Of a stretch of DNA of 64,000 nucleotides, positions 1,414 through 3,891 are shown one piece after another. The DNA comes from Botryosphaeria dothidea (lineage: Eukaryota > Ascomycota > Dothideomycetes > Botryosphaeriales > Botryosphaeriaceae): positions 496,001 through 560,000 of the forward strand of contig WWBZ02000012.1 of NCBI GenBank assembly GCA_011503125.2, in the 5' to 3' direction. Positions within the stretch are counted from its first letter, which is position 1. Each line of letters begins with the position of its first letter. Made by a program: the position numbers and the translations under genes. The notes under the pieces are model-generated. The model made no database searches. It worked only from the letters and a program-made list of their open reading frames with translations, and was not told the origin of the DNA.

Positions 1414-1715
1414 GGTGCGGTGTTGCGCGAGGAGGATTCGGTTTCAACATAGAGCTTTGGGGAGATCGTACGCTCTGCAAAATGGAATGCGGGAGTTATA
1501 AGAGAGCAGAAATGCATGTGGCCTCAGGGCTTTTTTCTAAAGGACTTTTGCCCTGGCTCCAGCCAAAACGTCACCCACCCCACCAACAAAAAAAGCTTTT
1601 CCCATCCTACACAGGACCTCCCTTCAACTCCAACAAGCCCTGAGGTAGTATGAGCAAAAAGAAAAAGATATTGACGAGGGTGGGACTCGAACCCACGAGG
1701 ATTGCTCCACTAGTA

Positions 1716-1746
1716 AATCCTTTTCGAAACTCCGCGTTGCAGATGT
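1716..1746 (-). other. Canonical tRNA intron (31 nt) after position 37
   Basis: It lies one base 3' of the anticodon CAG, the standard position for introns removed by the tRNA splicing endonuclease. Both flanks restore a 7-nt loop and a 5-bp stem. Confidence 0.75.
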
Positions 1747-1758
1747 CCTGAAACTAGC

Positions 1759-1817
1759 CTGTTGAGATTGTTAGAGTTGATGATTTTGACAGAAATGCAT
1801 CTACGAGAGTAACTTAC
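1759..1817 (-). other. Spliceosomal-type (GT-AG) intron inside the tRNA gene
   Basis: The 59-nt insert starts GTAAGT (perfect 5' splice consensus), has CTCTAAC as a branch site 12 nt before the end, and finishes CAACAG. It separates tRNA positions 25 and 26, a place where archaeal-type/endonuclease tRNA introns are not found in fungi. Without it the D arm is followed by G26 and a perfect 5-bp anticodon stem. With it no alternative fold keeps a normal anticodon loop (the best alternative gives a disallowed ACT anticodon). Confidence 0.7.
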
Positions 1818-1842
1818 GCCATAACCACTCGGCCACCTCGCC

Positions 1843-2556: not shown

Positions 2557-3891
2557 ATGCCCTCCCGCTCCGACATCTTCTACTTCGGCGCCGGCCCCGC
2601 GCCGCTGCCCACGCAGGTGCTGGAGCGCGCCGCGTCGGCGCTGCTCAACTACAACGACAAGGGCATCGGCATCTGCGAGATCTCGCACCGCTCGCCCGAG
2701 GCCAACGCCATCCTGGCCGACGCCAAGCAGGCCATGGCGACGCTGTACGACATCCCGGACGACTACGAGATCCTGTTCCTGCAGGGCGGCGGCAGCGGCG
2801 AGTTCAGCGCCGTCGTCTACAACATGGTGTCGATCTGGGTCGAGAAGCGGCGGGCGCGCGCCGAGGCGGAGCTGGGCGCGGGCAAGGACGCCGCGGTGCT
2901 GGAGCGCCTGCGCCGCGAGGTGCGCGCCGAGCTGCGCGCCGACTACCTGGTGACGGGGTCGTGGTCGCTCAAGGCGTCGCAGGAGGCGGCGCGGCTGGTC
3001 GGCGCGGCCCACGTCAACGTCGCCGTCGACGCGCGCAAGGCCAACGGCGGCAGGTTTGGCACGATCCCCGCCGAAGCCGAGTGGAACCTCACGCCCCGCA
3101 AGCCTGGCCCCGCATACGTCTACTTCTGCGACAACGAGACGGTGGACGGCGTCGAGTTCGCCGGCTTCCCCGCCGCGCTGGAGGGCGAGGACGCGCCGCC
3201 GGTGGTGGCGGACATGTCGTCCAACTTCATCAGCCGCAAGATCGACGTGCGCAAGTACGGCGTCATCTTCGGCGGCGCGCAGAAAAACATCGGCAACGCC
3301 GGCGTCACCATCGTCATCGTGAAGAAGTCCCTGCTGCCGCCGCACGCGCCCTCGGCGTCCCCCGAGCTGCTGCGCCAGCTCGACCTGCCCGTCGGCCCCA
3401 TCGTCTTCGACTGGCCGACCATCGCCAAGAACAACTCGCTCTACAACACCCTGCCCATCTTCGACGTCTGGGTCGCCGGCCAGGTCATGCAGGGCCTGGT
3501 CCAGGCGTTCGGCGCCCAGAAGATCGCCGGCCAGGAGGGCGTCTCCAACCAGAAGGCCGAGCTGCTGTACGCCGTGCTGGACAAGTACCCGGACGTCTAC
3601 CGCGTCGTGCCCGACAAGAGCGTCCGCAGCAGGATGAACCTGTGCTTCAGGGTGCATGGCGGCGATGACGCCAAGGAGAAGGAGTTCCTGGCTGGCGCCG
3701 AGAGGAGGGGACTGACTGGCCTCAAGGGACACAGGAGTGTCGGTGGTATCAGAGCCAGCAATTGTGAGTTTTCCCCGATCATACGATATGAAATCATGAT
3801 GCTGACTTGAGTTCTCGCAGATAATGCCGTTCCCCTTGAGGGAGCTCAGAAGCTGGCGCAGTATCTGGAGGAGTATGCTAAGGGCGCGTAA
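2557..3891 (+). CDS. SER1: Phosphoserine aminotransferase
   Basis: PLP-dependent class V aminotransferase converting 3-phosphohydroxypyruvate and glutamate to phosphoserine, the second step of cytosolic serine synthesis. Starts ATG at 2557 (sequence opens MPSRSDIFYFGAGPAPLP, the conserved N-terminus with the FGAGPAPLP loop). Other motifs are EISHRSPEANAI, LFLQGGGSGEF, the PLP-lysine segment GGAQKNIGNAGVT (Lys about 243), and near the end RGLTGLKGHRSVGGIRAS. One intron, 3764-3820 (GTGAGT...CTCGCAG, 57 nt), splits the Tyr codon in RASNYNAVP. Exons 2557-3763 and 3821-3891 give 425 residues, normal for fungi. An in-frame TTG at 2530 is not the start. High GC and strong codon bias suggest good expression. 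Confidence 0.95.

Follow-up and report, generated by a model that had tools for sequence, protein, structure and literature searches.

Introduction

Can a nuclear tRNA gene be served by the spliceosome? In the textbook view, the introns of nuclear tRNA genes are removed by the tRNA endonuclease only, and spliceosomal introns belong to transcripts of RNA polymerase II (Pol II), with U6 as an odd exception. The question is raised by a tRNA-Leu(CAG) gene in the window, the 64,000-nt stretch of DNA analysed here (C8:496001-560000; C8, C12, C3 and similar labels denote contigs of the host genome). An earlier note had described this gene as carrying a GT-AG intron of the mRNA type next to its normal tRNA intron, and had left it between two readings, a Pol III transcript in need of both splicing machineries and a dead copy hit by an intron. 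We conclude, with a probability of roughly 0.88, that RNA polymerase III (Pol III) transcribes this nuclear tRNA gene together with a spliceosomal intron of the U2 type, the 59-nt insert, which is one of at least 11 such introns in nine genes.

The tRNA-Leu(CAG) gene of the window

The window has a GC content of 53% and is part of a genome of 51.7 Mb, whose tRNA set and short GT-AG introns would suit a filamentous ascomycete. The Leu(CAG) gene is located on the minus strand between two adjoining plus-strand genes, which encode a phosphoserine aminotransferase and an ORF with a weak match to a Mur-ligase domain, below the Pfam cut-off. Four proteins of the window were scanned against Pfam, and two scored above the cut-off, one scored below it and one had no match. 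Towards the end of the window (40001-64000), the GC content drops from 55-62% to 42-49%; this part is strongly skewed here and there and possibly repeat-rich.

Re-reading of the insert at tRNA positions 25/26 reproduced the earlier description exactly. The insert reads GTAAGTTA...CTCTAAC...CAACAG, with its GTAAGT start and the branch-site-like motif 12 nt from its end (Table 1). ARAGORN agreed that the removal of the insert together with the 31-nt intron yields a tRNA-Leu(CAG), of 81 nt and with discriminator A73. With the 59-nt insert alone removed, the program recognized a Leu(CAG) gene with a 31-nt intron at 37/38. The A and B boxes, which had been claimed to be intact, were both located. 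The unspliced gene was misread by ARAGORN in intron mode, which assigned the anticodon AAG and an 88-nt intron. Intron-free ARAGORN found no tRNA gene in the window, and Rfam at the gathering threshold gave no match there, so that the Leu(CAG) gene was missed by both. Because plain finders missed the gene and intron-mode ARAGORN misread it, similar genes may go uncounted in other genomes.

Table 1. Coordinates of the tRNA-Leu(CAG) gene, its parts and the comparison mRNA intron in the window
Feature	Position	Strand	Basis
tRNA-Leu(CAG) gene, both introns included, 171 nt	1672..1842	-	ARAGORN and reading of the sequence
Exon 1, 25 nt, 5' strand of the acceptor stem and D arm to position 25	1818..1842	-	
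Spliceosomal-type intron, 59 nt, tRNA positions 25/26, GTAAGT...CTCTAAC...CAACAG	1759..1817	-	Paralogue comparison
Branch-site-like CTCTAAC, branch A 12 nt before the 3' end of the insert	1770..1776	-	
Exon 2, 12 nt, positions 26-37, anticodon CAG	1747..1758	-	
Canonical endonuclease-type tRNA intron, 31 nt, after position 37	1716..1746	-	
Exon 3, 44 nt, positions 38 to discriminator A73	1672..1715	-	
A box TGGCCGAGTGG, intact	1825..1835	-	
B box GGTTCGAGTCC, intact, 11/11 to consensus	1683..1693	-	
Pol III terminator-like T runs TTTTTCTTTTT, past the 3' end of the gene	1656..1666	-	
Comparison mRNA intron, phosphoserine aminotransferase gene, 57 nt, GTGAGT...CTGAC...CAG	3764..3820	+	Protein homology

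Leu(CAG) paralogues and CUG decoding

A region search of the same genome and D-arm patterns located three Leu(CAG) genes, the one in the window and two further ones at C12:1397548-1397713 and C3:777202-777375 (match ranges). All three possess an insert at 25/26, with lengths of 59, 55 and 54 nt (window, C12 and C3). Their 1.5-kb flanks are without similarity, apart from some 25 nt that the C12 and C3 genes share beyond the 3' end. The exons of the C12 and C3 genes are identical (81/81), as are their canonical introns (30/30); of their inserts, only 39 of 56 columns match. In each pair of Leu inserts, all 17 signal positions (GTAAGTT, TCTAAC and ACAG) are identical, and outside these signals 22/44, 23/44 and 22/39 columns match, which is near the 48% observed for shuffled introns. 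Conserved signals in drifted interiors are the pattern of a spliceosomal intron that is selected only at its signals.

The comparison of the paralogues also bears on the parse that ARAGORN proposes for the unspliced genes, a single long intron of 82-88 nt, for which another tRNA is assumed and GTAAG is taken as the 5' side of its anticodon stem. This parse gives three different anticodons (AAG, TAG and CAG) to three paralogues, places the intron at 32/33 or 33/34, and offers no reason for the segment GCTAGTTTCAGG being the same in each of the Leu genes. The paralogue comparison thus makes the long intron very unlikely, and its probability is practically negligible.

A second, intact Leu(CAG) gene devoid of the insert would have counted against the reading as an intron. 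None was found in the genome, a query with the spliced tRNA included, although such searches could pass over a gene whose body differs greatly. Since every located Leu(CAG) gene carries the insert at the same site and has intact exons (3/3), the suggestion of a dead copy is disfavoured and found no support; chance or a dead copy is an unlikely source of the window insert. Among the Leu codons of seven window ORFs taken as genes, 132 of 274 are CTG. A Leu(TAG) gene without such an insert is present on C58 and might read CUG by wobble.

Inserts in initiator Met, Trp, Val(CAC) and Pro(CGG) genes

The insert in the window gene was upheld, but not its standing as a single case, as at least nine tRNA genes, representing five amino acids, carry inserts of the same type. 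Altogether, 11 inserts were observed in nine genes, namely Leu(CAG) (three genes), initiator Met (three), Trp, Val(CAC) and Pro(CGG), or in ten places when a copy on C78 is counted. The numbers of tRNA genes and of insert-bearing genes are lower bounds, because the genome searches score the best candidates only; the search with RF00005 scored 63 of 1497.

The initiator tRNA-Met gene on C47, which ARAGORN had misread as a tRNA-Cys gene, has a 56-nt insert. It was first noticed in a scan for GTAAGT-CTAAC-AG, and its splice signals were part of that pattern. A pattern for the initiator D arm that holds no splice signal gave three exact matches (C1:751588, C1:6143393 and C47:1330631, the last known beforehand), and a GTAAG...AG insert was present at 24/25 in each of them. 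The four matches with one mismatch comprised one insert-free initiator gene on C29 and three places that are not tRNA genes. The insert is thus found in three of the four initiator tRNA-Met genes located, and the C29 gene fixes its exact junction, AAGCG/CGCC. The three initiator inserts match one another in 38/58, 33/59 and 36/64 columns.

A tRNA-Trp gene with an insert is located on C36, and C78 holds a copy of the same gene. Here the junction is fixed in the same way as for initiator Met, by an insert-free Trp gene on C12. Removal of the insert and of a 16-nt canonical intron from the C36 gene gave a Trp(CCA) tRNA of 72 nt in ARAGORN (14 intron lengths tried). The tRNA-Val(CAC) gene on C1 carries two inserts, at 24/25 and 60/61. 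The tRNA-Pro(CGG) gene on C12 (about 1472446-1472675; L144, L164) contains three introns, with a canonical one of 50 nt between two of the spliceosomal type at 18/19 in the D loop and at 57/58 in the T loop. With inserts and canonical introns removed, ARAGORN recognized Val(CAC) and Pro(CGG), each of 72 nt. The program miscalled the Leu genes on C12 and C3 as well as Trp and Val when the canonical intron was left in.

The Trp, Val and Pro genes were found with an A-box pattern that contains GTAAGT, and their first 5' splice sites are therefore not independent evidence. Patterns of an A box followed by GTAAG were no commoner than reversed controls (65 versus 91 and 213 versus 397 places), and the real genes among these places are marked by their tRNA context only. 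From the pattern with 213 places, 100 were looked at. The Leu and initiator Met places were known already, and most others from both patterns were judged by the matched letters alone. Small stretches around 24 A-box places were read; four of these hold the Trp (twice, with the C78 copy), Val and Pro genes, 19 showed by eye no tRNA gene around the match, and one (L158) did not contain the match. The T-arm inserts of Val and Pro turned up unsought, as no search pattern targeted the T arm. Leu(CAG) and initiator Met have the strongest support, and that for Trp is good. It is thinner for Val and Pro, which are single genes whose first inserts were found with a pattern holding the 5' splice site. 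The unsought T-arm inserts and the well-formed spliced tRNAs nevertheless speak for both.

The existence of insert-free initiator Met (C29) and Trp (C12) genes means that these two tRNAs need not depend on the spliceosome. It also lends itself to the reading that spliceosomal introns or look-alike DNA have killed the interrupted genes and that the insert-free copies do the work. For Leu(CAG), no such copy was located. The exons of the interrupted genes are intact and nearly identical between copies with drifted inserts, T runs follow the genes, and dead genes are not expected to retain splice signals. We regard dead copies as distinctly improbable.

Several further observations on this genome stand apart from the inserts. 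Three genes for tRNA-Gly(GCC) or tRNA-Ser(GCT) and a fourth that ARAGORN called Thr and that is tRNA-Gly(GCC) by its exons (L065 on C47; the others are L060 on C58, L066 on C5 and L067 on C12) contain long introns at or near the canonical place, with lengths of 47, 66, 66 and 69 nt (in the order L060, L065, L066, L067); one of the four is the tRNA-Ser(GCT) gene. Copies whose exons are identical or almost so have different introns of this kind, and the motif used gave no GT-AG intron signals in them. A repeat family with an A-box-like string near TAGCTRAATYAGGTRGCTYAGTAAGT occupies 11 places on ten contigs (e.g. C1:5705619 (L157), C12:1005155 and C36:393447), and no tRNA structure was seen downstream in the one copy read. 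Several contig stretches are 99-100% identical and colinear, with indels only and no mismatches (L068/L069 and L063/L064 on C3 and C12; L029/L031 and L051/L052 on C36 and C78; L058/L059 on C12 and C67). Their colinear spacings are 28394 versus 28401 bases from tRNA-Ser to U6 and 297140 versus 297185 bases from tRNA-Val to tRNA-Ala. Such stretches may reflect a redundant or two-haplotype assembly, or a recent duplication.

Intron class

The inserts share one design. Each of the 11 starts with GTAAG, followed by T in eight, C in one and A in two of them, and each contains a CTRAY branch site (CTAAC, CTAAT or CTGAC), whose branch A is separated from the 3' end by 10-12 nt. All end with AG and have lengths of 50-61 nt. 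The CTRAY motif was absent from the genome search patterns, except for the scan that first showed the C47 initiator gene. In all 11 cases the GT-AG ends coincide with the exon boundaries, and these are independently fixed by the insert-free initiator Met and Trp genes. The insert positions 18/19, 24/25, 25/26, 57/58 and 60/61 were numbered by hand from the sequences. The sequences of the inserts, their boundaries and recurrence, the conserved signals and the selective pattern are direct observations.

Strict GTAAGT-CTAAC-AG segments occurred five times in 244.5 kb of the genome, a sample biased by the inclusion of loci chosen for their resemblance to the window gene; 20 first-order simulated sequences had 0.45 on average and never more than 2. 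Three of the five belong to the Leu(CAG) genes and a fourth to an initiator tRNA-Met gene; the fifth (L119) carries no assignment. A loose motif scan was discarded as evidence, since it gave a mild enrichment only (71, where 20 simulated sequences averaged 48 and reached at most 63). Pol III is stopped by TTTT. This string occurs in none of the 11 inserts, but its absence is not significant (P 0.09 and 0.18) and was dropped as a mark of Pol III constraint.

One mRNA intron of the same genome provides a reference for this design. Removal of the 57-nt intron from the neighbouring aminotransferase gene gives a C terminus that aligns across the junction, unbroken, to a solved phosphoserine aminotransferase. 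The tRNA inserts (50-61 nt) resemble this intron, the one verified mRNA intron of the genome used for comparison (n=1), in length, 5' site, branch site and AG end. Fungal mRNA introns differ in their setting, as they interrupt coding Pol II genes, whereas the inserts lie in non-coding genes of the Pol III type with very short exons. An attempt to collect a larger set of mRNA introns from coding statistics yielded mostly noise, with five candidates at first and then 62 GT-YAG segments versus 42 and 57 in controls, and was abandoned.

Other intron classes fit less well. Self-splicing introns of groups I and II have a catalytic core of hundreds of nucleotides; the inserts have 50-61 nt, and the window contains no Rfam match at the gathering threshold. 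Canonical eukaryotic tRNA introns are found in the same genes, as Leu, Trp, Val and Pro also have one after position 37. The inserts differ from them in that they are located elsewhere (18/19 to 60/61) and carry GT-AG and branch signals; in the window gene, the 37/38 position is occupied by the separate 31-nt intron.

A more serious candidate is an ectopic intron cut by the tRNA endonuclease at a bulge-helix-bulge motif in a non-canonical position. Such introns interrupt the D, anticodon and T loops of some tRNA genes in the red alga Cyanidioschyzon merolae (PMC3978253, in excerpt), and several introns per tRNA gene are described for ectopic or multiple-intron systems of C. merolae and archaea (PMC4090602, in excerpt). 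The inserts in the D and T arms resemble these cases in their positions and in the presence of several introns in one gene (excerpts of PMC3978253 and PMC4090602), and the inserts in the Leu D arm and the Pro D loop allow three of four pairs where the central helix would be. The introns of C. merolae and archaea are cut by the endonuclease at a bulge-helix-bulge; in the present inserts, the standard central helix of 4 bp is complete in none of 11, with three pairs in four inserts and one or two pairs in the other seven. The endonuclease model moreover leaves the GTAAG, the CTRAY at 10-12 nt and the AG unexplained in all 11. We consider ectopic endonuclease introns improbable and retain the assignment of the inserts to the U2-type spliceosomal introns.

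Pol III signals and the U6 gene

The insert-bearing genes possess the elements of a functional Pol III tRNA gene, that is, A box, B box and T run, and the window gene has the complete set. A run of TTTT or longer follows within 60 nt of the 3' end in all nine genes. The B box scored 11/11 in the three Leu genes and 9/11 in initiator Met, Trp and Val. The insertion into the T arm of Val leaves a weakened B box (9/11), and the gene could therefore be poorly transcribed; the insert-free initiator Met and Trp genes score 9 as well. The intron in the T loop of tRNA-Pro interrupts the B box but contains a second one, AGTTCGATTCC, with a score of 10/11 (P 0.003 by shuffling).

U6 is also a Pol III gene, and mRNA-type U6 introns are known from some fungi other than fission yeast; the intron of fission-yeast U6 also holds a B box. 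Three U6 matches were present in the genome. Two of them represent the same gene on near-identical contigs (L068, L069) and are without an insert. The third, on C18 (L070, about 1501-1660; match 304005-304103 and onwards), contains a 58-nt intron, GTAAGC...TACTAAC...CAG. Its removal restores the U6 sequence, and comparison with the insert-free relative fixes the junction exactly. Of the two distinct U6 genes, one thus bears an intron, of the same design as the tRNA inserts. This intron contains a B-box-like CGTTCGATCCC (10/11, P 0.01 by shuffling), a P value that is weak on its own given that 12 introns were tested. We read these B-box matches, in U6 and in tRNA-Pro, as introns that seem to supply the promoter element which they interrupt. 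Given the intron in a U6 gene, the spliceosome probably serves a Pol III transcript here already, as it does in fission yeast (PMC10484740).

The inserts could also be true spliceosomal introns of loci that are read within Pol II host RNAs and not as Pol III precursors. Spliceosomal introns normally reside in Pol II transcripts, with the U6 of fission yeast as a known Pol III exception (PMC10484740, in excerpt), and the B boxes of Trp and Val are imperfect (9/11). Against this, the genes are accompanied by A boxes, B-box matches and T runs, the three Leu genes have unrelated flanks, and both neighbours of the window gene are on the other strand. A Pol II product is highly improbable, and transcription by Pol III is the preferred reading.

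Among the closest known systems is the U6 snRNA gene of fission yeast, a Pol III gene that carries an mRNA-type intron, thought to have arisen by reverse splicing near the catalytic nucleotides of U6 (PMC10484740, in excerpt). Both there and, as we predict from the sequences, in the tRNA genes, a U2-type spliceosomal intron would be excised from a short Pol III RNA. The two cases differ in that U6 is a component of the spliceosome and tRNAs are not. The tRNA inserts, moreover, occur in several families and in both D and T arms, and Leu, Trp, Val and Pro add an intron of the endonuclease type.

Among the matches listed in a search of full-text literature, outside of which most subscription journals lie, none describes a spliceosomal intron in a nuclear tRNA gene, though such a report could exist. 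Pattern searches for homologues outside the genome gave no match in viral contigs and none in a first scan of prokaryote contigs. A second prokaryote scan gave 36 loci, none of which had CTAAC within 90 nt; one of them (L098) is by eye an ordinary bacterial tRNA gene with a chance GCGTAAGT in the anticodon stem.

Proposed maturation

How the interrupted genes would be transcribed and spliced, in which order, and how far decoding depends on the spliceosome, we infer from their anatomy and from general knowledge of tRNA processing. Pol III would produce the precursor from the internal A and B boxes and end it at the T run; in tRNA-Pro, where the T-loop intron interrupts the B box, the intron seems to bring the replacement. 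The spliceosome would pair with GTAAG and CTRAY and excise the intron of the D or T arm in lariat form, so that the tRNA could fold. RNase P and RNase Z would then trim the ends. Where a canonical intron is present at 37/38, as in Leu, Trp, Val and Pro, its removal by the tRNA endonuclease and ligase would come next. The spliceosomal step probably comes first and takes place in the nucleus, since a D or T arm cannot fold with the insert in it. Trimming of the ends and endonuclease cleavage at 37/38 require a folded tRNA body and would therefore come later. The idea that an mRNA-type GT-AG intron and a normal tRNA intron would make a Pol III transcript dependent on both splicing machineries fits the evidence from these genes.

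Implications

We lean towards a wider reading, which we hold less firmly than the nature of the window insert. According to it, spliceosomal introns have invaded tRNA genes genome-wide, and the decoding of CUG and much of the supply of initiator tRNA would depend on the spliceosome. The tRNAs for Leu, Trp, Val and Pro would require two unrelated splicing machineries, one after the other. In at least one case, the T loop of tRNA-Pro, the intron would have taken over the B-box promoter into which it was inserted.

If this is correct, the duties of the spliceosome extend to the translation apparatus, including the tRNA of initiation and the tRNA for the commonest leucine codon, and the capacity for translation would be coupled directly to spliceosome activity. 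Such genes would be natural precursors that test the spliceosome on uncapped Pol III RNAs with very short exons. They would also show that introns can be gained even where the fold of the product and the internal promoter leave little tolerance for change.
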